Assembly: GCF_030219325.1 (NCBI RefSeq)
Contig: NZ_CP126625.1
Coordinates: 2,158,857-2,222,856, forward strand
DNA length: 64,000 nucleotides
Reading direction: 5' to 3'
Origin: Geothrix sp.
GTDB lineage: Bacteria > Acidobacteriota > Holophagae > Holophagales > Holophagaceae
Position 1 is the first letter of the stretch; each line of letters starts with the position of its first letter. Positions 17,649 through 49,804 of this stretch are shown in pieces. The notes beneath the pieces are model-generated. The model ran no database searches, was not told the DNA's origin, and saw only the letters and a program-made list of their open reading frames with translations. A program made the translations under genes and the position numbers.

Positions 17649-17655
17649 TTCCCAA

Positions 17656-19448: not shown

Positions 19449-19518
19449 GCCTAACCCTCCGCTCAACTCGGACCCCGCCTGCACTGTCTCCCGCTCTTTC
19501 TCTTCGTTCCGCTTCCTG
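19449..19518 (+). repeat. Truncated attC (left arm only)
   Basis: GCCTAAC, the left arm and part of the centre are present; the right arm and GTTRRRY box are missing and replaced by unrelated sequence. Confidence 0.8.
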
Positions 19519-19589
19519 CAGTCATTGGGCCTCACCCAACACATCAGCTCCCGAGGAAACAAATCAACAGGCGTAGGGGAGGGCAGGAC

Positions 19590-19928
19590 ATGGAAACAGG
19601 CTCGTACGCCAAACGATTGTGGTTATTGTGGCTGGCTCTACCGCTGACTTCGCTGAATTACTCGCTTTGCTGGAAGCACCTACCGGCACAGATTGCCATG
19701 CACTACGACGTAAGTGGTCGTCCCAATAGTTGGGCGTCGCCAGACGGCGCCCGGACCTTCTCATTGGGCTTTCTCTTCTTCATGCTCTTGGTGTTCACAG
19801 CTGTTGGCTATCTTGTGGCCTACACGAGGCCAGATCGCGCGAAGCCAGCCGTCATTCTCTTGTTCATTTCCATGGGTCTCGTTTTTGCCTTCATTAACGG
19901 GTTCGTGTGGTTCAACTTGGTAGGCTAA
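19590..19928 (+). CDS. Cassette 23: DUF1648 membrane protein
   Basis: A 112-residue membrane protein. The segment LPAQIAMHYDVSGRPNSWAS is the DUF1648 signature found at the N-terminus of SdpI-like immunity proteins and in small stand-alone proteins. It is flanked by a first span (WLLWLALPLTSLNYSL) and two more (FLFFMLLVFTAVGYLVAY, AVILLFISMGLVFAFINGF). It lacks the second SdpI domain. Function unknown; immunity is only a possibility. Confidence 0.8.
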   Translation: METGSYAKRLWLLWLALPLTSLNYSLCWKHLPAQIAMHYDVSGRPNSWASPDGARTFSLGFLFFMLLVFTAVGYLVAYTRPDRAKPAVILLFISMGLVFAFINGFVWFNLVG

Positions 19929-19939
19929 GGTAATCCATG

Positions 19940-20021
19940 GCCTAACCCTTAGCTCAATGCGGACCCCGCCTGCATTGCCTTCCGTTCTCTCTCCGCTTCC
20001 CGCTTCCCTCCTTCGTTAGAC
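19940..20021 (+). repeat. attC with internal deletion
   Basis: 82 bp, GCCTAAC to GTTAGAC. The left arm is present, but the right inner arm (GTGCAGGCG region) is deleted. Confidence 0.75.
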
Positions 20022-20097
20022 TTCACATCTCGCAATGTCGCTGTCATCAACGATGCCCAAAACAGCACGAATGTGCTGCGTGAGAAAAGGGGGTGGC

Positions 20098-20661
20098 ATG
20101 GCCAGGCTTGTATTCGGAATGAACCAGTCTCTGGACGGCTACGTCGACCATTTGGCGTTTGCACCAGGCCCCACGCTCTTCCACCACTTCGTCGAGGAGG
20201 CCCGGAGACAGGCGGGCAGCGTTTACGGCCGCCGGATGTATGAGGTCATGCGGTACTGGGACGACGATCATCCTGAATGGGATGAAGAGGAACACGCCTT
20301 CGCGGCAGCATGGCGGGCTCAGCCGAAATGGGTCGTCTCGCGCTCGTTGAAGTCCGTCGGCCCCAACGCCAGGCTTGTCGGGAATGACCTTGAGGTCGCG
20401 ATCCGCGAGTTGAAGGCCGAGCGCGACGGGGAGATCGAAGTTGCCGGCCCGAACCTGGCGCACAGCCTCACCGAACTCGGCCTGATCGATGAGTATCGAA
20501 TCTACCTGCACCCCGTTGTGCTCGGTCACGGCAAGCCATTTTTCGCCGGGCCCCGGCCGCCGCTCCGCCTCATCACTCAGGACCTAATGGGCGAGGATGT
20601 CATCAGGTTGACCTACGTCCCTGCATCATCCCCCGACTCGCCGGACGGACATCACCGTTGA
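20098..20661 (+). CDS. Cassette 24: dihydrofolate-reductase/RibD-like family protein
   Basis: The 187-residue product starts at ATG 20098, after an AGGGGG ribosome site; the frame is open 63 bases upstream without family similarity. It shows the RibD C-terminal/DHFR-like fold: LVFGMNQSLDGYVDH, VYGRRMYEVM, and the GxGG-like binding turn replaced by VAGPNLAHSLTELGLIDEYR, then LHPVVLGHGKPFF. Stand-alone members are NADPH-dependent reductases with unknown substrates. The gene is GC-rich, unlike the left-hand cassettes. Confidence 0.82.
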   Translation: MARLVFGMNQSLDGYVDHLAFAPGPTLFHHFVEEARRQAGSVYGRRMYEVMRYWDDDHPEWDEEEHAFAAAWRAQPKWVVSRSLKSVGPNARLVGNDLEVAIRELKAERDGEIEVAGPNLAHSLTELGLIDEYRIYLHPVVLGHGKPFFAGPRPPLRLITQDLMGEDVIRLTYVPASSPDSPDGHHR

Positions 20662-20686
20662 CGTGTCCAAGCTGCAGCTCTGTACG

Positions 20687-20706
20687 GCCTAACCATGTCC
20701 GTTCGG
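20687..20706 (+). repeat. attC remnant (internal deletion)
   Basis: GCCTAAC, seven bases, then GTTCGGC. It has the same collapsed layout as the remnant at 18796. Confidence 0.45.
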
Positions 20707-20751
20707 CGATTCACCGAATATCCTGGACCCCCTGCGGGAAAGGAGTGCAAC

Positions 20752-21180
20752 ATGCCGGACATTCTTCATCGCGTTGGAATTGATGCCTCTCCTGCCAAGG
20801 TCTTCAGTGCGTTGACGACGATTGATGGGCTGCGACACTGGTGGGTCGGTGAGACCAAATGGAATACCGGACTTGGCGAACTGATCGACTTCGGCTTCTG
20901 CCAAATGAAGGTCATTGAGTCCACCGCAGACTCTCTTGTCCACTGGACATGCACGTCGGGTCCCGATGAATGGGTCAACACAGGCGTATTCTTCCGGCTG
21001 GAATGGAAGGAAGGGCAGACCTTCATCCTATTCACGCATTCTGGCTGGAAAGAGCCCGTTGAATTCATGCATCACTGCAGCACCAAATGGGCCACCTTCC
21101 TTTTGAGTCTGCGGGACTGGCTTGAATCCGGCAGCGGCAAGGCCACCCCTAATGACATCAAAATCCACGTCGGCGATTGA
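20752..21180 (+). CDS. Cassette 25: SRPBCC (AHSA1-like) protein
   Basis: From ATG 20752 (AAAGGAG upstream) the 142-residue protein reads as a START/Bet v1-like helix-grip fold: HRVGIDASPAKVFSALTTID, GLRHWW, a central GELIDFGF strand, and a long C-terminal helix (WATFLLSLRDWLESG). This is the activator-of-Hsp90/polyketide-cyclase-like SRPBCC group, which binds hydrophobic ligands. Ligand unknown. Confidence 0.85.
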   Translation: MPDILHRVGIDASPAKVFSALTTIDGLRHWWVGETKWNTGLGELIDFGFCQMKVIESTADSLVHWTCTSGPDEWVNTGVFFRLEWKEGQTFILFTHSGWKEPVEFMHHCSTKWATFLLSLRDWLESGSGKATPNDIKIHVGD

Positions 21181-21199
21181 TCAATCCGGGTCTGTCATC

Positions 21200-21322
21200 G
21201 CCGAACCCTCCGCTCAACCCGGACCGCGCCTGCATTGCCCCGCTCTTCCTCAACATCTCACTATCCCGGCTTCGCCCATCATCTCGGCGCAGGCGTGGCC
21301 ACTTGGCTGTTTTCCTCAAGCC
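21200..21322 (+). repeat. Degenerate attC
   Basis: It begins GCCGAAC and retains both arms (GCCTGCATTGCCCCGC, GCGCAGGCGTGGCC), but the final box has mutated beyond the GTTRRRY consensus; the end coordinate is approximate. Confidence 0.7.
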
Positions 21323-21346
21323 TCAGATCCATGGAAAGGAGACATC

Positions 21347-21760
21347 GTGAGTGATGCCACTGAGAATTTGATGGCGGCCCAGCAGCGAGGAATGGCTGGA
21401 CGCCCGAGCATAGGAGGGTTCCCTTATTTGGCCGAAACCCTCCGAAGGGCTGGAGTAACAAGAAACCTCTGGTATTTGCCAGCATGCCAAAGCGTCTACC
21501 TGACCAAGCTGGGTCCCGTCACGGTTCTGGGAACACCGCTGATCGAGGGCATGGCCGATGTGCCTCCGTTCAACCGCGAAGCGCTGGTTGCGGCTTTGCG
21601 GACGGATCAATCTGGTCGCAGCACCTTCCCGGAGTTTTTGCAGGCCAGTTGGAACGCCGGCGTCGTCAAGTATGACGTCGACCTTATTGGACGAACCTGC
21701 ACCTACCATGGTGTTGGTGATGAAGCGTACGTTGAAACCTACCCTGAAGTCGAGATCTAG
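21347..21760 (+). CDS. Cassette 26: DUF1398 family protein
   Basis: A GTG at 21347, preceded by AAAGGAGA, gives a 137-residue protein. The second half (FPEFLQASWNAGVVKYDVDL, RTCTYHGVGDEAYVETYPEV) matches DUF1398 (YbcV-like), whose members are small cytosolic proteins of unknown function found in prophages and accessory DNA. An upstream open stretch crosses the previous attC and is not part of the gene. Confidence 0.8.
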   Translation: MSDATENLMAAQQRGMAGRPSIGGFPYLAETLRRAGVTRNLWYLPACQSVYLTKLGPVTVLGTPLIEGMADVPPFNREALVAALRTDQSGRSTFPEFLQASWNAGVVKYDVDLIGRTCTYHGVGDEAYVETYPEVEI

Positions 21761-21784
21761 CCCGGGCGACAGAAGCTGAGGTCG

Positions 21785-21889
21785 TACCCCAAGCCTGCCT
21801 TGCCTTCTGCTCTCTCTCAGCTTCCTGCTTCTTCAGCTATGCTCATCGCCTCGGCTCAGGCGGCGCCGGTCAGCCTTGCCCGGTTGGCA
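21785..21889 (+). repeat. Degenerate attC
   Basis: The centre and right arm (CTCTCTCAGCTTCCTGCTTC, CTCAGGCGGCGCCGG) remain; the first box is not recognisable and the last reads near GGTTGGCA. Boundaries approximate. Confidence 0.6.
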
Positions 21890-22026
21890 CCAACACTCAA
21901 CCAAGAAGCATAGACGTAGCCTCCCTCTCTTGTGTATGGATGTGCAACTCGGCTGTACCACGTCACTTTCCCATTGCTCAACCGCGGCTGCTGACAGTAC
22001 AGGCTGCAGCCGGAAAAGGAGGCTTC

Positions 22027-33061: not shown

Positions 33062-35137
<2,076 letters not shown>

Positions 35138-36083: not shown

Positions 36084-37346
36084 ATGAGCGCCGCCTCTGC
36101 GCCAGCCCGCGCCGGGAATCACCGTGGGCCCTTCCACGTCGTGATCATCACGCCCTACTTCTGGCCGATCCTGGCTTCCTCGACCCACCTCATGAAGGAC
36201 CTGGCGGAGGGGCTGGCCGGAGAGGGGTGTCGGGTGACGGTCCTGTCCAACGGACCGAACACCGCCACCCGCGAGGCGGACGGCCCCCTGCTGGCCGGCA
36301 GCGTCCACCGGGCCTGGAATCCCTTCCTGCGGCGCCTGGGCGTGCTCTCCAAGTTCTGCGAGTACCTGTGGTTCATGGCCTACTTCCTGCTCCGGGGCCT
36401 GGCCATCCCGGGAATCGACGTCATCTTCGTGGCCTCCACCCCTCCCCTTGCGGGGCTGCCGGCGGCCCTGCTGGCCCGGCTCAAGGGGGCCAAGATGGTC
36501 TACAACCTGCAGGACATCTTCCCGGATTCCGCCGTGGTGGCCGGGATGCTGCCGGCCGGCGGGTGGATCTACCGCTGTCTCCGCAAGGCCGAGGAGGCCA
36601 CCTACCGGAGCTCCGATCTCGTCTCCTCCATCAGCCCGGCCTTCTCCGAGTATGTCCAGCGCCTCGTCCCCGGCACGCCGGTGGCCACGATCCCGAACTG
36701 GGTGGACACGGACCACATCCGACCCCGCGAGTCCGCCGAGGACCCGGACATCGCGGCGTTCCGCCGGGGCGGGGCCTTCGTCGTGCAGTACGCCGGGAAC
36801 ATCGGGTTCATGCAGAACCTCGAGACGCTGGTGGAGGCCGCCGAGCAGTTGAAGGGCGTGCCTGGCATCCGGTTCATCTTCATCGGCGATGGCAATGCCA
36901 AGCAGACGCTCCAGGAGCTGGCCCGCCAGCGGGGACTGGCCAACTGCGAGTTCCTGCCGCTGCAGCCGCTCGACCGGGTCCCCTCGGTGTACAACGCCTG
37001 CGACCTCGGAGTGATCCCCCTGAAGCCGGGCGCGGCCCACATCGCCGTTCCCAGCAAGACCTGGAACTACCTGGCGGCGGCCCGGCCCGTCATCGGCTGC
37101 GTGGAAGAGGACAGCCCCCTGGCCCAGGTGATCCGGGAAAGCGGGTCGGGCTCCGTCGTGCCCCCTGACGATCCCGGCCGGCTGGTCCAGGTGATCCTGG
37201 AATACCAGAATGCCCCCGGGCGCGCCCGGGCGGAGGGCCTGCAGGGACGGACCTACGTGGAGGCCAACCTCTCCCGGCGCACCGCCATCAAGCGCTACTT
37301 CCAGATGTTCAACCACGTGCTGGGCCGACCTGCGGAAACCCCCTAA
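36084..37346 (+). CDS. Glycosyltransferase family 4 (WbuB-like)
   Basis: The 420-residue protein starts with FHVVIITPYFWPILASSTHL, the N-terminal Rossmann domain of WbuB-like GT4 enzymes. The C-terminal donor domain contains FVVQYAGNIGFMQNLETLVE, FIFIGDGNAKQTL and PSKTWNYLAAARPVIG. WbuB of E. coli O26 transfers N-acetyl-L-fucosamine, and UDP-L-FucNAc genes lie at the right end of this locus, so it may add FucNAc to the second position. A 19-codon frame at 36027 overlaps its start. Confidence 0.9.
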   Translation: MSAASAPARAGNHRGPFHVVIITPYFWPILASSTHLMKDLAEGLAGEGCRVTVLSNGPNTATREADGPLLAGSVHRAWNPFLRRLGVLSKFCEYLWFMAYFLLRGLAIPGIDVIFVASTPPLAGLPAALLARLKGAKMVYNLQDIFPDSAVVAGMLPAGGWIYRCLRKAEEATYRSSDLVSSISPAFSEYVQRLVPGTPVATIPNWVDTDHIRPRESAEDPDIAAFRRGGAFVVQYAGNIGFMQNLETLVEAAEQLKGVPGIRFIFIGDGNAKQTLQELARQRGLANCEFLPLQPLDRVPSVYNACDLGVIPLKPGAAHIAVPSKTWNYLAAARPVIGCVEEDSPLAQVIRESGSGSVVPPDDPGRLVQVILEYQNAPGRARAEGLQGRTYVEANLSRRTAIKRYFQMFNHVLGRPAETP

Positions 37347-37416: not shown

Positions 37417-38574
37417 ATGAGGCAGGAATTCCTCTCCTACAACCCCCCCACCATCGGCGACGGCGAGCGCGCAGAGGTGATGGAGACCCTCCTGTCCCCC
37501 TGGGTGACCACCGGCCCGAAGACCAAGGCCTTCGAGGCCGCACTCGGGACCTACCTCGAGGCCCCGGCCGTGGTCGCCCTCAACTCCTGCACCGCGGGCC
37601 TCCACGTGGGCCTGGTCGCGCTGGGCGTGGGTCCGGGGGACGAGGTGATCGTCCCCGCCATGACCTTCTGCGCCACCGCCAACGTCGTCGAGCACGTGGG
37701 CGCGAAGCCGGTCCTGGTCGATGTCTGCGCCGACACGCTGACGCTCTCCCCCGAGGCAGTGAGGGCCGCCATCACCCCGCGCACGAAGGTCATCCTGCCC
37801 GTCCACTACGCGGGCCACCCCGCGCAGATGGACGAGCTGGACCAGCTCGCGGGCCAGCACGGCCTCGCCATCATGGAGGACGCGGCCCACGCGATTTCCA
37901 CCCGGTACAAGGGGCGCCTCATCGGTTCGCGGGCCAACCTCGCGGCCTTCAGCTTCTACGCCACGAAGAATCTCACGACGGTGGAGGGCGGCTGCCTCAC
38001 GGGCAGCCAGGAGCTGATCGACAGATCCCGGATCATCGGCCATCACGGCATGAACCGGGATGCCTGGAAGCGCTTCGACCGCTCAGGCTCCTGGTACTAC
38101 GAGGTGGTCCTCCCCGGCTTCAAATACAACATGACGGACATGCAGGCGGCCATCGGCCTGGTGCAGCTCAAGCGGATCGAGGCGTTCCAGAGGCGCCGCC
38201 GGGAGGTGGTGGCCCGCTACGCCGCGGGGTTCCAGGACCTGGCCGCCCTGGAACTTCCGGTCGAGCGGCCCTGGGCCGCGTCGAGCTGGCATCTCTACGT
38301 GCTCCGCCTCCGCGCCGGGCAGCTGAGGATCGACCGCAACGCCTTCATCGACGAACTGAAGGACCGGAACATCGGCACCTCGGTCCACTACCTCCCGGTG
38401 CACATGCATCCCTTCTACCGGGACAAGTACGGCTACCGCCCCGGGGACATCCCCGTCGCGGCCGACGCCTACAGCCGGATGCTCAGCCTGCCCCTCCACG
38501 CGGGGCTGTCCGACGGCGACGTCGACGACGTGATCGAGGCCGTGCGGGAGCTCGTCCTTTCCAACCCGGCCTGA
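37417..38574 (+). CDS. DegT/DnrJ/EryC1/StrS-family sugar aminotransferase
   Basis: From ATG 37417 (AAGGAA upstream) the 385-residue enzyme has the PLP-binding FSFYATKNLTTVEGG with Lys184, the EDAAHA motif (Asp155) and the SCTAGLHVGL phosphate cup. Family members transaminate keto-sugar nucleotides using glutamate. With the FlaA1/WbpM-type dehydratase upstream and a phosphoglycosyl transferase two bases downstream, it likely makes a 4-amino-6-deoxy-HexNAc (bacillosamine-like) nucleotide. Confidence 0.92.
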   Translation: MRQEFLSYNPPTIGDGERAEVMETLLSPWVTTGPKTKAFEAALGTYLEAPAVVALNSCTAGLHVGLVALGVGPGDEVIVPAMTFCATANVVEHVGAKPVLVDVCADTLTLSPEAVRAAITPRTKVILPVHYAGHPAQMDELDQLAGQHGLAIMEDAAHAISTRYKGRLIGSRANLAAFSFYATKNLTTVEGGCLTGSQELIDRSRIIGHHGMNRDAWKRFDRSGSWYYEVVLPGFKYNMTDMQAAIGLVQLKRIEAFQRRRREVVARYAAGFQDLAALELPVERPWAASSWHLYVLRLRAGQLRIDRNAFIDELKDRNIGTSVHYLPVHMHPFYRDKYGYRPGDIPVAADAYSRMLSLPLHAGLSDGDVDDVIEAVRELVLSNPA

Positions 38575-38576
38575 TC

Positions 38577-39188
38577 ATGGCGAAACGGGCCTTCGATCTG
38601 TTCTGGTCGATCCTGGGGCTGGTGATCCTGTCACCCCTGCTGGTGCTGGCCGCCCTCCTGGTGAAGCTGGAGGATGGCGGCCCGGTCTTCTTCCGGCAGG
38701 TCCGCATCGGCCGCGAGGGCCGGCCCTTCCGCATCTGGAAGTTCCGGACCATGGTGGTGGACGCGGAACGCATGGGCCGGTCCATCACGGTGGGGCAGGA
38801 TGCGCGCATCACGCGCGTCGGCGCCAGGCTCAGGGACACCAAGCTCGATGAGCTTCCCCAGCTGCTGAACGTGGTGGCCGGCGACATGAGCCTGGTGGGC
38901 CCCCGACCCGAGGTGCCACGGTACGTCGAACTCTACTCAGAGGCTCAGCGGGCCATCCTCGCCCTGCTTCCCGGCATCACCGACCTGGCCTCGATCAAGT
39001 ACCGGCACGAGAGCGAGCTGCTCGCCGGAGCCGAGAATCCCGACGAAACCTACGTCCAGGTCCTGCTCCCCGACAAGATCCGCATCAACCTCGCCTATGC
39101 GGCCCGGGCCGGGGTCTGGTCCGACTTCCTCGTCATTCTCGCCACCCTCGGCCTCTTCCCCCCGGGGCGCATCCGCACGGAGCCCTGA
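38577..39188 (+). CDS. Initiating phosphoglycosyl transferase (bacterial sugar transferase)
   Basis: A 203-residue small monotopic phosphoglycosyl transferase of the PglC/WecP-like size. It has one N-terminal membrane helix (FDLFWSILGLVILSPLLVLA), KFRTM (55-59), the catalytic Asp-Glu in TKLDELPQLLNV (Asp91-Glu92) and VGPRPEVP. It transfers a sugar 1-phosphate from UDP-sugar to undecaprenyl phosphate on the inner membrane, starting the repeat unit. It directly follows the aminotransferase gene and is convergent with the next gene. Confidence 0.93.
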   Translation: MAKRAFDLFWSILGLVILSPLLVLAALLVKLEDGGPVFFRQVRIGREGRPFRIWKFRTMVVDAERMGRSITVGQDARITRVGARLRDTKLDELPQLLNVVAGDMSLVGPRPEVPRYVELYSEAQRAILALLPGITDLASIKYRHESELLAGAENPDETYVQVLLPDKIRINLAYAARAGVWSDFLVILATLGLFPPGRIRTEP

Positions 39189-39213: not shown

Positions 39214-40815
39214 TCACGTCCTCCCGCGGCCCTCCTGGGGGTCGAGGGTGAGGCGCAGGTGGACCAGGCGCTCCGAACTCAGCTCGGGCACTTCCACGAA
39301 CCCCGCCTGCTCGTTCAGGGCCCGTGCCCGGGCGTTCTCGCGCCGCACGCCGGTGTTGATGCTCTCGGCGCCCCATTCCAGACAGGCCCGGATCGAGGCC
39401 TGCTTGAGGCCCCGGCCGATGCCGCAGCCCCGGACCTCTGCCGCGACGCAGGTGAAGGCGATCTGGGCGGCGCCCCCGCAAGGCCTCGCCGCGGATGGAA
39501 CCGACGGTCCCAGCCTGCTCCACCAGTCCGGACGGGCCGCCAGCCAGGGGCGACGGAGGAACCCCAGCATCGCCTGCCACCGGCACGCCCGGAGCAGGGG
39601 CCGGCCATAGGGCCGGTCCGAAAGGGCCGTGAGACCCACGAGCCGGTCCCCGCTGCGGGCCACCAGGACCAGGGTCCCCGGCGAGGTGAGGAACCAGCGG
39701 TAGGCCGCCCGGATGAATCCACGCCCGAACCCCAGCAGGGCGCCCTCCTCCGCGGAGGAACAAGCCAGGTGCAGGGCGACCACCTCTGCGAGATCAGCGG
39801 GGGTGCCGGGGGAGATCTGGATGTTCAGCCCCTGTGGCGCCGGGGTTTCGAGCTCCCGGAACAGGGGGGAACCGAGCCGCCGGCAGATGTCCTCCCGCTC
39901 GGAAGCGAGGAGTTCCGGGAACGGCTGCCGTGCCAGCGGCAGCTTCCCGTTGGCGTGGAACCTCACCAGCCCTTCCGCCTTCTGCAGGTAGTCGCTCTTC
40001 GGGTAGAGGGCCGCCAGACCCCCAAAGCACCTGGAGACACCGTCGCCAACCCATGGGGCCAGACGGGGATGGAACACCACGCGCTGGCGGACGGGCCGGA
40101 CCGAATAGCCGAGCCGCGCCTTGAACTGATCGACGCTGGGGGGGGCGTCCAGGGAGTGGAGGCCGTTGTGGATCAGGCGGACGCCCGCGTCCGCCGCGAG
40201 GGCCCGGGTGACCTCGAACAGGAGGGCGTTGTTCACCCGCTGCGGAAGGAATTCGGTGAGCGACTGCTGGTAGAGCATGTCGATGCAGTCGTCGATCCGC
40301 ACGAACAGGAGGGAGGCCGCCAGCCGGCCTCCCACTTCCGCCCCCCAGGCCTCGAATCCATCGAGGTCCGCCGCCGCCCGGACCATGCGATCCCAGTGGG
40401 GGCGCCTGTGGCGGGAATGCCGCTGCTGGCGCGACCGCGTATCCCGCTCAAGGGGCCAGCCCTCGCTGGCGTAGCGCTCCAGTGGAATGGGCCCGACCTG
40501 ACAGGCTTCGAGCCCCCGCCGGACCTTGGCGCGGATGGAGGCGTCCACGTCCTGGATTCCGTAGGCGAGCCGCTCGAAGACGATGTGGTAGCTGCAGGCG
40601 CCCTCGTCCGCCTCCAGATCCGTGGAGTAGCGGAGCCCGATGGCGTTCTCTTCGAAGAAGAAGTCGCGGAGCTCGTCCTCGGTGGGGCGGATCACCCAGT
40701 GGTAGGGAAAGGCCTGGAAGACCCGTGGCCCCGAATCGAACCAGTAGGAGCTCCGCGTGCGGACCACGCGATGACCCTGGCGCCGCAGCCATTCCGCAAA
40801 AATGTCCGGGGTCAT
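39214..40815 (-). CDS. FemAB-like/GNAT fusion acyltransferase, paralogue A
   Basis: A 533-residue two-domain protein. The first ~330 residues look like a FemAB-type GNAT (VRRGLEACQVGPIPLERYAS, DGFEAWGAEVGGRLAASLLF, then VNNALLFEV and LDAPPSVDQFKARLGY). The C-terminal part is a second GNAT (GDRLVGLTALSDRPY, RGCGIGRGLKQASI, NARARALNEQAGFVEVP). Its N-terminus FAEWLRRQGHRVVRT closely matches paralogue B at 44112. FemAB-type enzymes transfer aminoacyl or acyl groups; the acceptor here is likely a locus sugar. It ends a three-gene minus-strand operon. Confidence 0.78.
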   Translation of the reverse strand: MTPDIFAEWLRRQGHRVVRTRSSYWFDSGPRVFQAFPYHWVIRPTEDELRDFFFEENAIGLRYSTDLEADEGACSYHIVFERLAYGIQDVDASIRAKVRRGLEACQVGPIPLERYASEGWPLERDTRSRQQRHSRHRRPHWDRMVRAAADLDGFEAWGAEVGGRLAASLLFVRIDDCIDMLYQQSLTEFLPQRVNNALLFEVTRALAADAGVRLIHNGLHSLDAPPSVDQFKARLGYSVRPVRQRVVFHPRLAPWVGDGVSRCFGGLAALYPKSDYLQKAEGLVRFHANGKLPLARQPFPELLASEREDICRRLGSPLFRELETPAPQGLNIQISPGTPADLAEVVALHLACSSAEEGALLGFGRGFIRAAYRWFLTSPGTLVLVARSGDRLVGLTALSDRPYGRPLLRACRWQAMLGFLRRPWLAARPDWWSRLGPSVPSAARPCGGAAQIAFTCVAAEVRGCGIGRGLKQASIRACLEWGAESINTGVRRENARARALNEQAGFVEVPELSSERLVHLRLTLDPQEGRGRT

Positions 40816-40851
40816 CGCAGCCGATTCCGGGGAAGGTCCATGTCCGGTTCC

Positions 40852-41772
40852 TCAGGATAGGTGGAGGGAGTGCCTGAAGCGCGTCAGGGCCCCGGCGGGG
40901 ATGCGGCGCAGGCATCCCACCGCGTGGGTCGCCCAGTCGCCGCCGTAGGGGATGTAGCAGCGCACGGTGCAGCCGTCGGCCAGGAGCCGTTCCTGCAGAT
41001 CGGGCCTGACGCCGTACAGCATCTGGAACTCGAAGGCCTCCCTTCCGAGCCCTAGTCGCGCCTGCACGGCCAGGGTCCAGGCGATGGCAGCCTCGTCGTG
41101 TGTGGCGATGGCGGGCGAGACTCCCCGCAAGAGCAGCCGCTCGATGTCGCGGTTGAAGGCGGCGTCGACCTCCGCCTTGCTTCGGAAGACCTGGCTTGCG
41201 GGTTCCCGGTAGCCGCCCTTCACCAGCCGGATGCTCGCCTTCCGGTCCAGCAGGCGGTCCAGGTCGCCCGCCCGGTGCCGCAGGTAGGACTGGATGACCA
41301 GACCGACCGTCCCGTTCCCAAAGCGATCCTGCATCTCCTCGAACACCCGGAGGGTCGTCTCCACATAGTTCGATTCCTCCATGTCGATCCGCACGAACCC
41401 CCCGGTTCCCGCGGCGCATTCCAGGATCCGCCGGAGCTGGAGCTGGCAGTAGGCCGGGTCCAGGTCGAGGCCGATCTTCGTGAGCTTGATCGAGACATTC
41501 GAATCGAGGCCTTCCTCGCGGATCCGCACCAGGGCGTCCATGGCCTGCTGGGCCGCCCCCTCCGCTTCCGCCAGGTCCAGCACATGCATCCCGTGGAAAT
41601 TCAGCGTGGTCTTGAGCCCCCGGGCGTTCGCACCGCGAGCCGCGGCCAGGGCGGAGGCCAGATCCTCCCCGCCCACGAAGCGGCCCGCCAGCTCCCTGAC
41701 GATCGGGGTGCTCATGACGAGCTTCCTGAACCAGGCCTGCCTGGCGAGGATCTGGGCGGCTTTCCGGATCAT
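40852..41772 (-). CDS. Proline-dehydrogenase-like FAD enzyme
   Basis: The 306-residue beta-alpha barrel matches bacterial monofunctional PRODH in length and motifs: VSIKLTKIG (93-101), RIDME (128-132), IQSYLR (160-165), RLVKGGY (182-188), ATHD (223-226), EFQMLYGVRP (248-257) and RCYIPYGGDW (271-280) with the Arg289-Arg290 pair. PRODH oxidises proline to pyrroline-5-carboxylate using FAD. Its place between a carbamoyltransferase and an acyltransferase inside a polysaccharide locus, with no P5C dehydrogenase nearby, is unusual and suggests a tailoring rather than a catabolic role. Confidence 0.88.
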   Translation of the reverse strand: MIRKAAQILARQAWFRKLVMSTPIVRELAGRFVGGEDLASALAAARGANARGLKTTLNFHGMHVLDLAEAEGAAQQAMDALVRIREEGLDSNVSIKLTKIGLDLDPAYCQLQLRRILECAAGTGGFVRIDMEESNYVETTLRVFEEMQDRFGNGTVGLVIQSYLRHRAGDLDRLLDRKASIRLVKGGYREPASQVFRSKAEVDAAFNRDIERLLLRGVSPAIATHDEAAIAWTLAVQARLGLGREAFEFQMLYGVRPDLQERLLADGCTVRCYIPYGGDWATHAVGCLRRIPAGALTRFRHSLHLS

Positions 41773-41805
41773 GGTGCCTCAGAGGGGCGGATCGCCCAGG
41801 GGGCG

Positions 41806-43518
41806 TCAGTTCGGGATGGGCTTGGAAATGAGGAAGGGACCGAGGGCCAGGTGGAGCAGGCCCGATCGCTGCATCACGTCGATGGCGTCAGCCGGGGAGG
41901 AGACGATGGGCTCGCCGTGGATGTTGAAGGAGGTGTTCATGATCGCCCCCCGTCCCGTCCTCTCCCGGAACCGTTCCAGGATGCGGTGGTAGGGGCGGTT
42001 CTGCGCCGATGTCACCACCTGGGGGCGGATGGTCCCGTCCTCGGGATGGCAGGCGGCCTTGACCTCCTGCGTGTTCCGGGAGTCGAAGGCCAGGATCATG
42101 TAGGGGGCCGTGAAGCCCTTGGGGTTGTGGATGTAGCGGTCGGCGCATTCGGCCATCACCGAGGGCGCGAAAGGCATCCAAAAATCGCGACACTTGATGG
42201 CGTTGTTCACGGTGCGAACCACCTCGGGGGAAGTCGGGTCCGCCAGGATCGAGCGGTTGCCCAGGGCGCGGGCGCCGAACTCCTCGCGGCCCTGGGCGCG
42301 GGCCACCACCTGGCCGCGGCTCAGGAGCTCCGCGATGGCGTCCTCCAGGTCCTCCGGCCGCGCCACGGTCCAGCCCAGCGCATGGGCCCGGTCGGCGGAC
42401 GCCTGATACTCGGCTGCGGAGGGCTCGGGCCCGAGGTAGAGCGATTCGAGGGGTTGGATGGTATCGGCCTGGCCGAGGTCCGAAAGGTGGGCCCAGGCGG
42501 CGCCCAGGGCGTTGGTCTCGTCGCCGCAGGAGGGGAACACGAACAGGTCATCCACCTCGGGCAGTTCGCCGATGGCCTTGTTCAGCTTCACGTTCATGAA
42601 GACGCCGCCGGAGAGGTGCAGCTTCCTGCGCCCTGTCTTCTTCAGCCAGCCGCGCACCCACGCCGTGAGGAACTCCTCCGTGAAGCTCTGGAGTCCGGCG
42701 CAGACGTAGTCGAAGCGGGTGAACTCCAGGCGTTTGCGCCAGTACTCGTAGGAGTGGGTCGTGTCGGGCACGCCCGGTGCCCGCCGCCAGGAACCGTCTG
42801 TGAGTTCGAAGGCGCTGGCGAACACCCGCTTGATCTTCTCCACGCGGTCGCCGCTGGCATAGGGCGCCATGCCCATGAGCTTGTACTCGTGTTCCATGGG
42901 CACCATGCCCATGTAGGCCGTGATGACCTCCCAGAGGTTTCCGATGGATTCATCCTCGTGGATGGTGGCGAGCCGCTCCAGCCGTCCTCCGGGCCCGGGC
43001 AGGGAGACCGTGGCACAGAGCGAATCCCCCGCGCCATCGACCGTGATGACCAGGGCCTCCTCGTCCACGCCCCGACCGAAGTGGGCCGTGGCAGCATGGC
43101 AGCGGTGATGCTCGATGGTGAAGACCGCCTTGCGGTCCACGCCATGCGCGACGAGGCGCTCGATCTGGCGCTCGCGACGCCAGCGGTGGACCATTCCGCG
43201 CACCGGGGTCTTCTGGAGCAGGCGCTTCACCTGCCCGGCGAACGTCGCAGCCTCTTTGTAGCCCCGGATGCGATTCGCCGCCTCGTTGCTGCTGGAGGTC
43301 GTGTCGGCGTAGGATCCGTAGCCTCCGAAGACATAGGCGTCGACCTCCTGCCAGGAGAACCCGTGGCTCTCCAGCAGCCGGCCGATCGCCTGCTCCGGGA
43401 ATCCGCGCCGGTTCTTCTCCCGGGTCGGGCGCTCCTCCTGCAGGGCGCCGAGAAGGCGACCATCACACAGCAGCGCGGCGGAAGCTGTATGGCTCGGATT
43501 GATTCCACAGATCAACAT
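41806..43518 (-). CDS. Carbamoyltransferase (NodU/CmcH family)
   Basis: The 570-residue protein has the two-part carbamoyltransferase layout. The N-terminal ASKHA-like Kae1/HSP70-fold part includes MLICGINPSHTASAALL, TIEHHRCHAATAH and ITVDGAGD. The C-terminal part carries EEFGARALGNRSILADP and IMNTSFNIHGEPI. NodU and CmcH transfer the carbamoyl group of carbamoyl phosphate to a hydroxyl of a sugar or antibiotic via carbamoyl-AMP. Here it probably carbamoylates a hexose of the exported glycan. It is the first gene of a minus-strand operon with PRODH and paralogue A. Confidence 0.92.
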   Translation of the reverse strand: MLICGINPSHTASAALLCDGRLLGALQEERPTREKNRRGFPEQAIGRLLESHGFSWQEVDAYVFGGYGSYADTTSSSNEAANRIRGYKEAATFAGQVKRLLQKTPVRGMVHRWRRERQIERLVAHGVDRKAVFTIEHHRCHAATAHFGRGVDEEALVITVDGAGDSLCATVSLPGPGGRLERLATIHEDESIGNLWEVITAYMGMVPMEHEYKLMGMAPYASGDRVEKIKRVFASAFELTDGSWRRAPGVPDTTHSYEYWRKRLEFTRFDYVCAGLQSFTEEFLTAWVRGWLKKTGRRKLHLSGGVFMNVKLNKAIGELPEVDDLFVFPSCGDETNALGAAWAHLSDLGQADTIQPLESLYLGPEPSAAEYQASADRAHALGWTVARPEDLEDAIAELLSRGQVVARAQGREEFGARALGNRSILADPTSPEVVRTVNNAIKCRDFWMPFAPSVMAECADRYIHNPKGFTAPYMILAFDSRNTQEVKAACHPEDGTIRPQVVTSAQNRPYHRILERFRERTGRGAIMNTSFNIHGEPIVSSPADAIDVMQRSGLLHLALGPFLISKPIPN

Positions 43519-44111
43519 GCCTGGGCTCCCGGTTGGCTGAAGTTGCAGCTGGGTCGGAGGGGGATCGGTCTCCGCGGCGGTTGAGGAAGGCGGGGTTCAT
43601 CGCGACGAAGGACTTTGGGAAGGAGCGGCCTGAGGATGGCTATGATGACATCAGCGGATTGCGAGAAGAGTGATGTTTTTTCGCGATTAATTACACTCAG
43701 AAATGATGTCTGCTGTAAAAGAATCAGGATGAACCAAGACGACGCCCGCCCACCCCTGGCCCACGCCTCCGAGGCCTCCGGCAGGCTTCATCCCGGCCTG
43801 GGCCACCAAACCGGGCCGGGAATCCGGGACCGGTCCATTCTTTCCCCGGGGACTACCGCCCAGCGGAGACTCCAACCTGGAGTTGACAGGCCCCGTGGTA
43901 TGGCGGGAAGAATGGACACCCTTCATCGGACACCCCGGTCCAGACTCAGCGGATTCCCCTTGCGCCAGCCTTCCCGCCAGTCCCCCGGCCCCCCGTCCTC
44001 CGGGCCCCGCGCCGTCGGCCGGTGGCCCGGGGAGATCCAGTCGGCTGGTCGCCCCGACGGCCGGGGATGGCGCAGGTGGAGATCCGTGGCAGGCCCTTGC
44101 AGGGAGGGCCG
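43519..44111 (-). promoter_or_regulatory. Divergent intergenic region; minus-strand promoter at 43690-43719
   Basis: No convincing gene is present in these 593 bases. On the minus strand, TTTACA (43714-43719) and TGTAAT (43690-43695) are 18 bases apart and would start transcription near 43683, giving a leader of about 165 nt for the carbamoyltransferase operon. The patch at 43660-43730 is AT-rich. No matching plus-strand promoter was found for paralogue B. Confidence 0.45.
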
Positions 44112-45665
44112 ATGAACGCGGACGTCTTCGCCGAGTGGATGCGCCGCCAGGGCTACCGCGTCGTGCGGACCGAGAGCAGCTACTGGTACAACGCGGCCCC
44201 GGGCGTGCTCCAGGCCTTTCCCTACCATTGGGTGATCACCCCCTCCGCCTCGGAGATCCGCCCCCTGATGATGCGGCACGGCATCCTCGCGGTCCGCTAC
44301 TCGACCCCCTTCGAGTTCACGCATGGCGTGGCGAGCTATCACATCACCCTCCGCGAGCCCTACTCCCTCGACCAGCTGAAGGCCCAGGCCCGCAATGGCG
44401 TGAAGACCGGCCTGGACCACTTCCAGATCGAGCGGATCCCCTTCGAACGGCTGGCCACGGAGGGATGGCTTCTGCAGCAGGACACCCTTGACCGGCAGGG
44501 GCGGCTCCGGAGCATGACCCGCGAAACCTGGGAACGCCTCTGCCGGTCGGCCTCCGATCTCGATGGCTTCGAAGCCTGGGCCGCCACCTCCGACGGCGAG
44601 CTCGCGGCCGCGGTCATCGTCGCGCGCCAGCAGTCCATCTTCTCCGTCCCCTTCGCCATGAGCCACCGGCGCTTCCTGGGGAACCACGTGAACAACGCCC
44701 TGTTCTACGCCGTCAGCAAGGAGCTGCTTGGCCGCGAGGGCATCGAGAGCCTGTTCTACACCGTGCAGTCCCTGGATGCGCCGGCCAATGTGGATGAGTT
44801 CAAGTTCCGCATGGGCCTGCAGATCAAGTTCGTCCGCCAGTGCGTGGACTTCAATCCGCTCATCCGTCCGTTCGCCACCCCGATGGCGCACCGGTTCGCC
44901 CGGAAGCTGCTCCAGCAGGACCCTTCGAACCCCCACATCGCCAAGGCGGAAGGCATGCTCAGGTTCCACCTCGAGGGCCGGAAGCCGATCGGGGAACAGG
45001 CCTGGCCGGAACGGCTCCTGGCGGAACGGTCCATGTTCCTGCCGCCCTCGAAGTGCTTCAGGAAGCTGAAGGACATCCTGGTGACGTCGGCCACGCCCTT
45101 CGACATCAATGCCCTGGTGGATCTCCATGGCGTCTGCTTTTCGAAGCACGAGCACATCCCCGTACGGCTGGGCAGGCCCTTCCTCATGGCGGTCTACCGA
45201 TGGTTCGTCTCCTCGCCCGACACCTCCGTGCTGGTGGCACGACAGGGCGGTCGGCTGGTCGGATTCACGACGCTCTCGGACCACCCCTACAACCTGCCCA
45301 TGCTGTGGGCCTGCCGGCGGGAAATGTTCAGGAGCTACCTCCGACATCCTTCGGCCCTCTTCGACCTGGAGCTGTTCCAGCGCCTGGGGGGGATCCTCGC
45401 CAACCGGCTGGGGGGCTCGGCCGAGAAGGTGGCCCAGATCGCCTTCACCGGGGTGGATCCGGCCTTCCAGGGCCAGGGCATCGGGAAGGCCCTGAAGGCA
45501 GCCTCCATCAGCGTCTGCCGCGAGCGGGGCATGGTGGCGATCTCCACCGGCGTCCGCAGGCAGAACCAGCGGGCCCGGAGGCTGAACGAACAGGCGGGGT
45601 TCGTCGAGGTGCCGTCCCTGAGCACTCGACGCCTGGTCTACTTGAGGCTGGACCTCAGGGACTGA
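44112..45665 (+). CDS. FemAB-like/GNAT fusion acyltransferase, paralogue B
   Basis: From ATG 44112 (GGGAGGG upstream) the 517-residue protein aligns along its whole length with paralogue A: FAEWMRRQGYRVVRTESSYW, QAFPYHWVI, DGFEAWAATSDGELAAAVIV, LDAPANVDEFKFRMGL, then the C-terminal GNAT with GRLVGFTTLSDHPY, FQGQGIGKALKAASI and NQRARRLNEQAGFVEVP. The second domain keeps a better acetyl-CoA loop (QGQGIGKA) than paralogue A (RGCGIGRG). The two genes diverge around the carbamoyltransferase/PRODH pair, so they may act on two positions or donors. Confidence 0.78.
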   Translation: MNADVFAEWMRRQGYRVVRTESSYWYNAAPGVLQAFPYHWVITPSASEIRPLMMRHGILAVRYSTPFEFTHGVASYHITLREPYSLDQLKAQARNGVKTGLDHFQIERIPFERLATEGWLLQQDTLDRQGRLRSMTRETWERLCRSASDLDGFEAWAATSDGELAAAVIVARQQSIFSVPFAMSHRRFLGNHVNNALFYAVSKELLGREGIESLFYTVQSLDAPANVDEFKFRMGLQIKFVRQCVDFNPLIRPFATPMAHRFARKLLQQDPSNPHIAKAEGMLRFHLEGRKPIGEQAWPERLLAERSMFLPPSKCFRKLKDILVTSATPFDINALVDLHGVCFSKHEHIPVRLGRPFLMAVYRWFVSSPDTSVLVARQGGRLVGFTTLSDHPYNLPMLWACRREMFRSYLRHPSALFDLELFQRLGGILANRLGGSAEKVAQIAFTGVDPAFQGQGIGKALKAASISVCRERGMVAISTGVRRQNQRARRLNEQAGFVEVPSLSTRRLVYLRLDLRD

Positions 45666-45896: not shown

Positions 45897-47081
45897 ATGT
45901 TCTGCGAACATCACACCGCGCCGTGGATCCTGGGATGCCCCCAGGCGGCGTCCGGCCCCTGGGTCCAGGCCCATCTCCGCCGAATCCAAGCGGGCGCCGC
46001 CCTCGCGGCGACGCTGCTGCTGGCGGCCTGCACCGCCCCTGGGATGAAGCTGAATTCCCACCCGAGCCGGCCAGAGAGGTCCGAGGTCGCCGGCCTCGCG
46101 GTGACGCTCCGTCCCATGACGCCCGACGTGGTGGCGACCCAGCGTGCGCCCCAGCCCCCGGCCCTCGACGGCCTGTTCGTCGAGAAGCTGCCTTCCTACC
46201 GCGTGGGAGCCCAGGATGTCCTCCTGGTCACGGTCTGGGACCATCCCGAGATCACCCTTCCCCTGGGCCAGTACCGGACGGATTCGGCCTCGGGGACCGT
46301 GGTGGACGATGACGGCACCATCTTCTTCCCGTACATCGGGCACGTGGCCGTGGCCGGATCGACCATCCCGGAGGTGCGCGCCAGAATCACCACCCAGCTT
46401 GCGAAGGTGCTTCAACGGCCCCAGGCCGACGTCAAGGTGCTGGCCTACCGCTCCCAGAAGGTGTATGTGGGCGGCGAGGTGCGCAATCCCGCCGCCTACA
46501 ACGTCACGGACATCCCCCTCACCCTTTCCGAGGCCATCGCCCGGGCCGGTGGGTTCCTGCCCACCGCCGATGACAGCCATCTGGTCCTGACGCGGGGAAA
46601 CCAGTCCTGGACCCTCAACTTCCAGGTCCTGATGGCCGCCGGAAACCGGCTCGGCCAGATCCTCCTCAAGGATGGCGATTCGCTCTACGTGCCCAGCGGG
46701 AAGGAGAATCCCGTCTATGTGATGGGAGAGGTCACGAGGCCGGGAACCCTGCCCCTGGTCCACGGAAGCCTCTCCCTGGCCCAGGCACTCTCTGAATCAG
46801 GCGGCATCCAGGGGAACAGCGCCGATGCGCGTTCCATCTACGTGATCCGCCAGGGCAGCGCCGTGAACTCGGTGGATGTCTTCCACCTGGACGCGCGCAA
46901 CCCCACGGCCATGGTGCTGGCGGATCGCTTCATCCTGGGCCCTCGCGATATCGTCTACGTGGATGCCGGCACCCTCACGCGCTTCAGCCGGGTCATGACC
47001 ACGCTGGTGCCCACCGTGACCGCCGTCTCCACCACCACCCTCGCCGCCGCAGAGGCCTGGTACTTCAGGAACCGGCGTTGA
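45897..47081 (+). CDS. wza: Polysaccharide export lipoprotein (Wza-like)
   Basis: A 394-residue outer-membrane export protein with a long N-terminal part ending in a lipobox (TLLLAAC, Cys45). A Poly_export domain follows (YRVGAQDVLLVTVWDHPEIT, VDDDGTIFFPYIGHVAVAG), then SLBB repeats (KVYVGGEVRNPAAYNV and VYVMGEVTRPGTLPLVHG). The C-terminal helix (WYFRNRR end) would form the alpha-helical pore ring. GGAGG precedes the ATG. It begins the wza-wzb-wzc and sugar-synthesis operon. Confidence 0.93.
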   Translation: MFCEHHTAPWILGCPQAASGPWVQAHLRRIQAGAALAATLLLAACTAPGMKLNSHPSRPERSEVAGLAVTLRPMTPDVVATQRAPQPPALDGLFVEKLPSYRVGAQDVLLVTVWDHPEITLPLGQYRTDSASGTVVDDDGTIFFPYIGHVAVAGSTIPEVRARITTQLAKVLQRPQADVKVLAYRSQKVYVGGEVRNPAAYNVTDIPLTLSEAIARAGGFLPTADDSHLVLTRGNQSWTLNFQVLMAAGNRLGQILLKDGDSLYVPSGKENPVYVMGEVTRPGTLPLVHGSLSLAQALSESGGIQGNSADARSIYVIRQGSAVNSVDVFHLDARNPTAMVLADRFILGPRDIVYVDAGTLTRFSRVMTTLVPTVTAVSTTTLAAAEAWYFRNRR

Positions 47082-47135: not shown

Positions 47136-47591
47136 TTGAAATCCATTCTCGTCCTTTGTGAAGGCAACCACTGCCGCAGTCCCATCGCCGAAGCCCTGCT
47201 CCAGGCCGCCCTGGGTCCTGAGGTCCGGGTGGCCTCCGCCGGGCTCAACGCGCTCGAAGGACAGCCTCCGGATCCCGAGGCCATGAACATCTCCCTTCAG
47301 AACGGCCTCGACATCGGCGGACACCGCGGGCGGCAGTGGACCAGCGACATGGCCCTCGGCGCGGATCTGGTCCTGGTGATGGACGAGGGGCAGAAGGCTC
47401 TCTGTGAAGCCCTGGTGCCGAGTGCCCGTGGGCGGGTGTTCCTGCTCGCGCATTGGCTCGCCACCCCGCCGCCGGGGATCCCTGACCCCTACCTCCAGGG
47501 CCCCGAGGCCACTCGGCGGGCCTTCGAACTCATTCATCAATCCGTGGCGGGCTGGCTACCCCGGCTCAAGACGAAGCAAAGGTCGGTATGA
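47136..47591 (+). CDS. wzb: Low-molecular-weight protein tyrosine phosphatase (Wzb-like)
   Basis: A 151-residue phosphatase from a TTG start, with MKSILVLCEGNHCRSPIAEA: the CX5R(S) loop has Cys8, Arg14 and Ser15. The general-acid Asp lies in GIPDPYLQG. Wzb enzymes dephosphorylate the tyrosine tail of the Wzc kinase to cycle polymer assembly. The stop overlaps the start of wzc by four bases (ATGA), so the pair is translationally coupled. Confidence 0.92.
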   Translation: MKSILVLCEGNHCRSPIAEALLQAALGPEVRVASAGLNALEGQPPDPEAMNISLQNGLDIGGHRGRQWTSDMALGADLVLVMDEGQKALCEALVPSARGRVFLLAHWLATPPPGIPDPYLQGPEATRRAFELIHQSVAGWLPRLKTKQRSV

Positions 47592-49804
47592 ACGCCTCCC
47601 ACCCATCGGACCCGCGCTCCCCATCGGGGACTCCAGAGCCCCTCCCCCGGCGGACCAAGCTGTCTGAAGACGGGGAGGACACGGAGATCTTCCCCTGGCT
47701 GGCGGACCTGTGGGAGGGACGGACCCTCGTCTTCGCGTCGGTGGCGATCTTCTTCTTGGCGGGACTGTTCTACGTCTGGTGGGCGCCCCCCCTCTACCAG
47801 AACGAGGCCATGCTCCAGATCCAGGCCAAGAAGGAACGGTCCTCCGACACGGCGTTCACGAAGATGGAGAGCATCTTCTCGGAACCGGTCGAAGCCGCCG
47901 CGGAGATCGAGATCATCCGGAGCAACCTCGTCCTCGGACGCACCGTCGAGGCCCTGGCCCTTGACGTGGTGGCCGAGCCCGAGGTGATGCCCCTGATCGG
48001 CGCGGCCCTGGAGCGCCGGAAGGCCAACCCGGCCCGGCTCGAGATCGAGTCCTTCGAGGTTCCCAAGCCCATCCGCGGCGTGGCCTTCCGCGTCACGTCC
48101 CTCCCCGACGGGGCCTTCCAATGGAGCGCCCCGGACGGGACCATCCTCGGAAAGGGAAGGCAGGGGGAGGAACTCAAGGCGACCTACGCCGGTGAGGCCC
48201 TGAAACTCAAAGTCCGTGAGCTTGTGGCGAACCCGGGCCAGAAATTCCTCCTCTCGGCGAGGCCGATGCAGGATGTCATCGACGGGCTCCGGCAGGACCT
48301 CGACGTCTCCGAACGGGGCAAGCTCACGAACATCCTGGGGCTGACGCTCCGTGGTCCGAACCCGACGAAGTGCCCGGTCATCCTGAACCAGATCATGGAC
48401 CAGTACGTCAGCCACAAACTGGAGCGGAGGCTGGGGACGATTTCCAAGGCCCAGGCGATCCTGCAGGGGAAAATGCCCGAACTGAAGGCCCAGGTGGAAG
48501 CCGCCGAAAGCCGGTTGAACCAGTTCCGGAGCCGGTCCGGCTCCGTCGACCTGTCCAGGGAGGCCGATGTCTACCTCTCGCAAAGCGCCTCCCTGTCCTC
48601 CCAGGTCTCGGCCCTGAAACAGAAGCGGGAGGAGCTGCTCCGCACCTACAAAGAGAACTCGGACGTGGTGGTCACGCTCGACCAGCAGATCGGCAAGCTC
48701 CAGGCGGAGCTGACCCACATCGACTCGAAGGTCCGCGTGATGCCCGGCCTCCAGCAGGAGGTGGTGCGCCTCTCCCGGGACGTGCAGGTCGCGACCGAGC
48801 TGTACACGGCGCTGCTCAACAATGCGCAGCAGCTCCAGATCGCCAGCGCGGGCGACATGGGCAACGTCGTCGTCGTGGACCGGGCCACGGTCAACCTCGA
48901 TCCCATCGCCCCGAAAAAGAACGTCATCCTGCTGCTCTCCCTGCTGCTGGGCTTGGCGGCCGGCAGCGGCTCGGCCATACTCCGGCGGGCGATCCGCCGC
49001 GGGGTCGAGGACCACCGGATCATCGAGACCAAGCTCGGCCTTCCCGTCTTCGTCACGGTGCCGCACAGCAAGGCCCAGCGCGTCCACGACGAAACCATCC
49101 AGCGGAGCACCGGCGGCCTGCACCTGCTCGCGGCCCTGGACCCGGGTGACCTCGCGGTGGAGAGCCTGCGCAGCCTGCGGACGATGCTGAACTTCTACAT
49201 GAAGGATGCCCCGAACCCCGTGATCCTCATCTCGGGCCCGTCTCCGATGATCGGCAAATCCTTCATCAGCGCCAATTTCGCCTGTGTCCTCGCCCAGGCG
49301 GGCTCGAGCGTGCTTCTGATCGACGGCGATCTCCGGCGGGGGAAGCTTCACAAGTATTTCGGGCTGAAGAATCGGCTCAATGGATTCTCCAACGTGGTGT
49401 CCGGGCAGCAGGAGTGGGAGACCATGGTCCAGGCCAGCGGGATCGACGGCCTGGACCTCGTCAGCACGGGCCTGCTCCCACCGAACCCCTCTGACCTGCT
49501 GATGGCACCGCGATTGGCATCCATCTTCGAGCAAGTATCCAAAAAGTACGACTACATCATCGTGGATGCCCCACCCGTGCTTCCCGTCACGGATGCCACG
49601 ATCCTCGGTTCCCACGCCGCGACAGTCCTCATGGTTGCCAAGTTCGGCCAACATCCCCTCGACGAGCTCCGGGCAGCCCAGAAGCGCTTTGAAAGCCACG
49701 GCATTCGTGTTAAAGGTTGTATTTTTAATGACATTAAGCCTGTCGGATGGGGTGGAAATTATCGTCACTATAATTACATCTATAACTATGATCTGAAGAA
49801 ATAG
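47588..49804 (+). CDS. wzc: Polysaccharide co-polymerase/BY-kinase (Wzc-like)
   Basis: The 738-residue protein has a first membrane span (residues 46-64), a periplasmic coiled-coil PCP domain, and a second span (NVILLLSLLLGLAAGSGSA). The cytosolic tyrosine autokinase has Walker A SGPSPMIGKSFIS (about 548-560), Walker A' VLLIDGDLRRG and Walker B YIIVDAPP. The tail (GGNYRHYNYIYNYDLKK) is the Tyr cluster that is autophosphorylated. It controls chain length and export together with Wza and Wzb. Confidence 0.94.
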   Translation: MNASHPSDPRSPSGTPEPLPRRTKLSEDGEDTEIFPWLADLWEGRTLVFASVAIFFLAGLFYVWWAPPLYQNEAMLQIQAKKERSSDTAFTKMESIFSEPVEAAAEIEIIRSNLVLGRTVEALALDVVAEPEVMPLIGAALERRKANPARLEIESFEVPKPIRGVAFRVTSLPDGAFQWSAPDGTILGKGRQGEELKATYAGEALKLKVRELVANPGQKFLLSARPMQDVIDGLRQDLDVSERGKLTNILGLTLRGPNPTKCPVILNQIMDQYVSHKLERRLGTISKAQAILQGKMPELKAQVEAAESRLNQFRSRSGSVDLSREADVYLSQSASLSSQVSALKQKREELLRTYKENSDVVVTLDQQIGKLQAELTHIDSKVRVMPGLQQEVVRLSRDVQVATELYTALLNNAQQLQIASAGDMGNVVVVDRATVNLDPIAPKKNVILLLSLLLGLAAGSGSAILRRAIRRGVEDHRIIETKLGLPVFVTVPHSKAQRVHDETIQRSTGGLHLLAALDPGDLAVESLRSLRTMLNFYMKDAPNPVILISGPSPMIGKSFISANFACVLAQAGSSVLLIDGDLRRGKLHKYFGLKNRLNGFSNVVSGQQEWETMVQASGIDGLDLVSTGLLPPNPSDLLMAPRLASIFEQVSKKYDYIIVDAPPVLPVTDATILGSHAATVLMVAKFGQHPLDELRAAQKRFESHGIRVKGCIFNDIKPVGWGGNYRHYNYIYNYDLKK

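Follow-up and report, generated by a model that had tools for sequence, protein, structure and literature searches.

A window of 64,000 nucleotides (nt) from the genome of a Geothrix sp. (3.73 Mb, one contig; NZ_CP126625.1, positions 2,158,857 to 2,222,856) contains, within a polysaccharide locus, a gene whose product resembles proline dehydrogenase (PRODH; EC 1.5.5.2), followed by the gene of a FemAB-like acyltransferase fused to a GNAT domain, hereafter fusion A. The residues of the PRODH-like protein and its pairing with FemAB suggest that it probably oxidises an amino-acid decoration of the surface polysaccharide, and not free proline. The core unit is the two-gene pair of PRODH-like protein and FemAB, which is smaller than the module of four genes (a carbamoyltransferase, the PRODH-like gene, fusion A and its paralogue, fusion B) proposed in an earlier note on this DNA. 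We assign a probability of roughly 0.4 to the full reading, in which aminoacylation by FemAB would be followed by oxidation, by the altered PRODH, of a proline-like group whose carboxyl is blocked.

The PRODH-like protein matches PF01619 (Pfam, 9e-31), and the top Foldseek matches of its AlphaFold model are all PRODHs. In comparison with the Deinococcus and Thermus enzymes, the model presents a TM-score of 0.84-0.87 on the query and about 36% identity. It is confident overall, with an N-terminal arm and a C-terminal tail of low confidence, and the C-terminal helix aligns to Thermus PRODH without gaps. The protein belongs to a clade, here termed GC-PRODH, found in eight genomes, six of soil and subsurface Geothrix bacteria and two of a sister genus of the Holophagaceae; the eight sequences are monophyletic in the tree, with 100/100 support and a long stem. 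The set with which the clade was compared comprised 56 PRODH homologues, drawn from Acidobacteriota and from further phyla, and contained the second PRODH of this genome. The helix alpha-8 pair R288/R289, in Thermus thermophilus (Tt) numbering, corresponds to G286-C287 in all eight clade members and is RR in 56/56 comparison sequences. The gate residue E65 is methionine in five members (M62 in the window protein) and threonine in three, and is glutamate in 56/56 of the comparison set, while L63, invariant in the 56, is changed in 8/8. Residues K99, D133, Y190 and Y275 (K96, D130, Y188 and Y273 in the window protein) are invariant in both sets, with no exception among the eight. The clade also has invariant residues of its own, namely N58, H63, E133, G187, C287 and R289 in window numbering, the last being a new arginine one helical turn beyond the lost pair, at the position of Tt A291.

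In PRODH, R288 and R289 bind proline, and R288 with E65 forms a suggested active-site gate (PMC6017737). The equivalent arginines, together with a lysine, form ion pairs with the carboxylate of the substrate, and both gate residues are found in all PutA and PRODH structures (PMC12398946). The clade is under purifying selection (dN/dS of about 0.2-0.4) and its open reading frames (ORFs) are intact, on which grounds a pseudogene was rejected. Given this selection and the confident PRODH fold, the protein is, as far as its sequence tells, a candidate for a functioning flavoprotein with a rebuilt substrate side, and not a product of decay.

A second, canonical PRODH with the RR pair is encoded elsewhere in the same genome and is present in nearly all Geothrix members; hence, the possibility raised by the earlier note, that the locus encodes the genome's sole PRODH, does not hold. 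A catabolic PRODH was rejected on the substrate residues together with this second enzyme, and the same residues make it unlikely that the protein serves free proline. An ordinary second PRODH, placed in the capsule locus by chance, would agree with the good PF01619 match and with an overall fold close to that of the Thermus and Deinococcus enzymes, yet no clade member retains either of the proline-binding arginines or the gate glutamate, and the canonical enzyme lies elsewhere in the genome, which renders this explanation very improbable.

The pairing with FemAB extends over the clade. In six of the eight genomes (that of the window, G024, G067, G005, G152 and G434) the FemAB gene lies directly 3' of the PRODH gene, at a spacing of 36 nt in the window and 70 nt in G024, and with the PRODH stop overlapping the FemAB start as a 4-nt GTGA or TTGA in the remaining four. 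The two genes are convergent in G015, about 10 nt apart. In G001, the PRODH gene is located 3' of the carbamoyltransferase gene, fusion B lies in this cluster in divergent orientation, and fusion A is on another contig; no clear remnant of a decayed fusion A was found 3' of this PRODH gene (a tblastn match of 22 amino acids, E 0.03), where another ORF is present. The partner in G005, G152 and G434 is a second FemAB subfamily (type 2, about 350 amino acids, as opposed to the type 1 of the fusions), and this switch coincides with a deep split of the PRODH tree. The association has therefore outlasted a change of partner subfamily. FemAB of type 2 is present without GC-PRODH in G007, and FemAB of type 1 in G140 and G365; no GC-PRODH without FemAB in the same locus was found in the eight genomes. 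Hence, GC-PRODH looks like an accessory to FemAB, and not the reverse.

Capsule loci often exchange genes, and fusion A and the carbamoyltransferase are indeed found elsewhere in some genomes, as would suit chance neighbours in a fast-shuffling locus with no link between PRODH and FemAB. However, the pairing is present in 8/8 genomes of two genera, with two FemAB subfamilies and a start/stop overlap in four, and in G434 the two genes are still side by side away from any obvious capsule locus. In addition, among 47 Geothrix genomes, GC-PRODH is associated with strong type 1 FemAB matches (Fisher p = 4e-6, uncorrected for kinship). Given these values, we hold mere chance to be most improbable.

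Two further observations concern genes close to the pair. In G152, a second PF13480 FemAB-like protein (L131:6797-7942) is encoded in the GC-PRODH/FemAB locus, with DegT and HAD genes nearby. In G015, a TupA-like ATP-grasp protein and a divergent enolase-superfamily protein (L076:18263-19213 and 16384-17652) adjoin PRODH, the former presumably belonging to the family of a teichuronopeptide gene.

The neighbourhood conservation in relatives that the earlier note asked for is thus present for PRODH with FemAB, but not for the set of four genes. G067 lacks the carbamoyltransferase, and the carbamoyltransferase gene of G015 (L082:8998-10707, 79% identical) is 580 kb away, alone among housekeeping genes and far from any recognised glycan locus; fusion A is detached in G001, as described above, and the FemAB and GNAT halves may be apart. 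The GNAT half is separate in G015 and stands alone beside a decayed FemAB in G004. A fixed four-gene module was rejected, since neither the carbamoyltransferase nor the GNAT half is constant across the genomes; both are accessories, not core. In G061 (L080:8732-10720), the GNAT is fused to a WcaI-like GT4 glycosyltransferase in a single 662-amino-acid ORF, which ties it to the amino-sugar operon. The stand-alone GNAT of the window is located upstream of the glycosyltransferase gene, where other genomes carry fusion B or the GNAT-glycosyltransferase fusion. The GT4-aminotransferase-PglC core is 65-87% identical across these genomes (85-87% for the aminotransferase in core-carrying Geothrix), and the GNAT belongs with this core. 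The carbamoyltransferase has both of its domains at full length (PF02543 at 2-345/346 and PF16861 at 1-170/170) and the motif HHRCHAATAHF, and is of the NodU/TobZ type.

Fusions A and B had been described as paralogous FemAB-GNAT proteins, and this description is well supported: both match PF13480 and PF00583, the AlphaFold model and Foldseek agree for fusion B, and the two are 45% identical. Fusion A consists of a FemAB-like double-GNAT region at about 1-310 with an invariant FK motif and a C-terminal GNAT with an RGCGIG acetyl-CoA motif; fusion B presents F230-K231 in its FemAB-like domain and a QGQGIG motif in a RimI/Ard1-like C-terminal GNAT. The model of fusion B (pLDDT 85.7) shows the double-GNAT fold, with the aminoacyl-tRNA-dependent peptide synthases Sba18/Sbb17 and FemX occupying Foldseek ranks 1-4 (about 273-316 aligned columns), followed by aminoacyl-phosphatidylglycerol synthases of the MprF type; the FemX and MprF-type families use aminoacyl-tRNA. 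Two of the three Sba18/Sbb17 entries among its best PDB matches have streptothrisamine, the amino sugar on which these synthases act, bound. When VIA-align was applied to the whole of fusion B, only the C-terminal GNAT domain was returned and the FemAB half was left uncovered; RimI/Ard1 came first for this GNAT, but tied with other GNATs.

Type 2 FemAB is related to type 1 only weakly by profile. Its G152 member passes the Pfam FemAB family PF02388 (34.1 against a cut-off of 24), whereas for this domain fusions A and B match only PF13480, and its sole significant match among PDB sequences is Sba18/Sbb17 (5.6e-7). No type 2 row and none of the closest type 1 rows departs from the FK motif, and all type 1 rows keep its lysine (K231 of fusion B; K298 in type 2); the type 2 FK aligns to the FK of Sbb17. 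The catalytic lysine is K305 in FemX and K329 in DhpH-C (PMC12945691). According to the same 2026 review, the BD-12 pathway enzyme Orf11 uses Gly-tRNA to glycylate streptothrisamine, and Orf11-type synthases share the double-GNAT architecture with FemX (PMC12945691). By analogy, a FemAB step from aminoacyl-tRNA to an amino sugar would be well motivated here. Other Geothrix capsule loci (L132, L133 and L134) contain a distant FemAB-like protein (about 30% identity) next to a right-handed beta-helix-like protein and Wza, and no PRODH.

In the mechanism that we propose, an amino sugar, e.g., a 4-amino-dideoxy sugar from the neighbouring dehydratase and DegT aminotransferase, would first receive an amino acid on its free amine through the FemAB domain, with aminoacyl-tRNA as the most likely donor. 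The PRODH-like protein would then oxidise the proline-like aminoacyl group, with its carboxyl already in an amide or ester, yielding a pyrroline/semialdehyde-type or a dehydro-aminoacyl substituent; the earlier note's idea of a pyrroline-like group survives in this changed form. A carboxyl-blocked substrate is proposed because loss of the carboxylate clamp would be expected if the carboxyl were already an amide. The GNAT half or GNAT partner may acetylate an amine in the pathway, either that of the sugar or the alpha-amine of the attached residue, and O-carbamoylation by the NodU-type enzyme would be an optional extra on the same polymer. Computation shows the residue exchange across the clade, the retained flavin-side residues, the purifying selection, the pairing with FemAB and the fold matches; the aminoacyl-tRNA donor, the amino-sugar acceptor, proline as the residue and the order of the steps are inferred. 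Amino-sugar acceptors are plausible, given that amino-sugar genes flank the locus (dehydratase, aminotransferase and genes of amino-uronic-acid type), and the DegT/PseC aminotransferase is the likely source of the acceptor. A more specific form, in which proline, or a similar residue, placed on a glycan amino sugar by tRNA-dependent FemAB attachment would be oxidised to a pyrroline/semialdehyde group that could cross-link the polymer, seems doubtful.

Several points weigh against the proposed mechanism. The main doubt is that R289 and H63 could form another carboxylate site, so that a free amino acid or another acid would be possible, and that the attached residue may be one other than proline. 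Not all transferases of the FemAB fold use tRNA, and the type 1 FemAB profile gave no match among PDB sequences, i.e., no significant sequence match to a solved structure. The G434 pair lies outside any recognised glycan locus, the G005 contig is too short to judge the glycan context of its pair, and the clade is present in eight genomes only.

The PRODH-like protein might also act before FemAB, oxidising a soluble amine or an amino acid other than proline with R289/H63 as the anchor, in which case FemAB would attach the product. The residues invariant in the clade alone (N58, H63, E133, G187, C287 and R289) point to a rebuilt site rather than mere loss, and the protein retains K96, the counterpart of a PutA residue that forms an ion pair with the carboxylate. 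However, FemAB-type transferases of known chemistry use standard aminoacyl-tRNAs (PMC12945691), and the neighbours examined beside the pair included neither a gene for a dedicated aminoacyl-tRNA synthetase nor an adenylation gene, the exception being a gene resembling that of cysteinyl-tRNA synthetase at a greater distance on the G005 contig. This order of events is somewhat unlikely.

Alternatively, the fold could serve as a non-catalytic partner or for a different flavin chemistry, whether folate/methyl chemistry similar to that of methylenetetrahydrofolate reductase or electron transfer for sugar oxidation. The folds of PRODH and methylenetetrahydrofolate reductase are related, and a kept flavin side with a rebuilt substrate side would be consistent with such a change. 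Yet the protein retains all four of K96, D130, Y188 and Y273, which are conserved about the active site of PRODH, and no folate-linked gene was seen beside the PRODH-like gene, and we consider this alternative unlikely.

The four ORFs sit inside a Wza/Wzc polysaccharide locus (Table 1), and the glycan setting claimed by the earlier note is confirmed by Pfam matches to Wza, Wzc and sugar genes. The ORFs and strands were as it had reported, as were the gaps of 33 bases between carbamoyltransferase and PRODH-like gene, 36 bases between the latter and fusion A, and 593 bases between the divergent genes; the last figure is exact with ATG 44112 as the start of fusion B, for which an upstream GTG at 44022 is a possible alternative. 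Wza, a small phosphatase-like ORF and Wzc follow downstream, in that order. Beyond Wzc there are genes of amino-uronic-acid type (Gfo/Idh/MocA, hexapeptide acyltransferase, DegT), Wzy-like and Wzx-like proteins and an asparagine-synthase-like amidotransferase; the last downstream sugar genes are presumably of L-FucNAc type, as named from partial family matches. Given orthologues at 63-80% identity in other Geothrix genomes and a dN/dS of about 0.2-0.4, the genes are not chance ORFs. A stretch that is partly conserved 5' of fusion B in four genomes, TTGAC...GG(A)AAAAATGG, looks like a promoter.

Table 1. Features of the polysaccharide locus, in window positions.
Feature	Position	Strand	Basis or remark
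FlaA1/PglF-type membrane sugar-nucleotide 4,6-dehydratase (Polysacc_synt_2)	33062-35137	+	start codon inferred
Stand-alone GNAT, 240 aa	35296-36018	+	31% identity to GNAT half of fusion A
WcaI-like GT4 glycosyltransferase	36084-37346	+	GT4-aminotransferase-glycosylphosphotransferase core
DegT/PseC-type sugar aminotransferase	37417-38574	+	profile match
Initiating bacterial sugar transferase (PglC-type Bac_transf)	38577-39188	+	profile match
Fusion A (FemAB-like + GNAT)	39214-40815	-	ORF, PF13480+PF00583
PRODH-like protein, 306 aa, GC clade	40852-41772	-	ORF, PF01619, alignments
Carbamoyltransferase	41806-43518	-	ORF + Pfam
Divergent intergenic region, 593 bases	43519-44111	.	sequence
Fusion B (FemAB-like + GNAT), paralogue of A	44112-45665	+	ORF, PF13480+PF00583, AlphaFold/Foldseek
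Wza-type export protein	45897-47081	+	profile match
Wzc-type tyrosine autokinase + chain-length regulator	47588-49804	+	profile match

Apart from this locus, positions 6600-21900 of the window hold a chromosomal integron-like cassette array, with about 20 to 24 repeats of about 141 nt. The repeats have attC-like ends (GCCTAAC ... GTTAGGC) and lie between small plus-strand ORFs whose function is mostly unassigned; the array has 51% G+C, against 65-70% in its surroundings.

In the open-access literature, with subscription papers mostly beyond the scope of the search, we found neither a capsule or O-antigen system with a PRODH nor a PRODH homologue for prolyl dehydrogenation in biosynthetic clusters. 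The fold families are known; to judge from the searched literature and the tools, neither the exchange of residues nor its link with FemAB has been described. All PRODHs are taken to possess the arginine pair and the gate. The clade described here replaces exactly these residues, keeps the flavin side and is tied to FemAB, and thereby offers a testable instance of a catabolic enzyme taken over for the tailoring of surface glycans. It also suggests that amino sugars of polysaccharides are aminoacylated from tRNA and, if true, oxidation of a glycan-attached residue would be a new flavin step in glycan decoration. Annotations of proline dehydrogenase in proteins without the RR pair are hence not to be taken as proline catabolism.

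In comparison with known systems, type 2 FemAB presents a weak profile likeness to the XrtA/PEP-CTERM FemAB (TIGR03019) and to FemX (NF047883), but it is far below the curated cut-offs and no exosortase context was seen. The carbamoyltransferase is as complete in both domains as the NodU/TobZ O-carbamoyltransferases, yet far below the NodU equivalog cut-off. Sba18, Sbb17 and Orf11, of streptothricin-type antibiotics, include the top structure match of fusion B and share the FK catalytic-lysine motif, although they belong to small-molecule antibiotic clusters, whereas the type 1 FemAB of Geothrix in most cases carries an additional GNAT as a fusion; we know of no PRODH partner of such streptothricin-type FemABX-like synthases. 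Finally, the PRODHs of Thermus thermophilus and Deinococcus radiodurans have the barrel fold and K99, D133, Y190 and Y275 in common with the PRODH-like protein, which differs from them in having lost the clamp and gate formed by R288/R289 and E65, and in having FemAB genes as neighbours, mostly in glycan loci.

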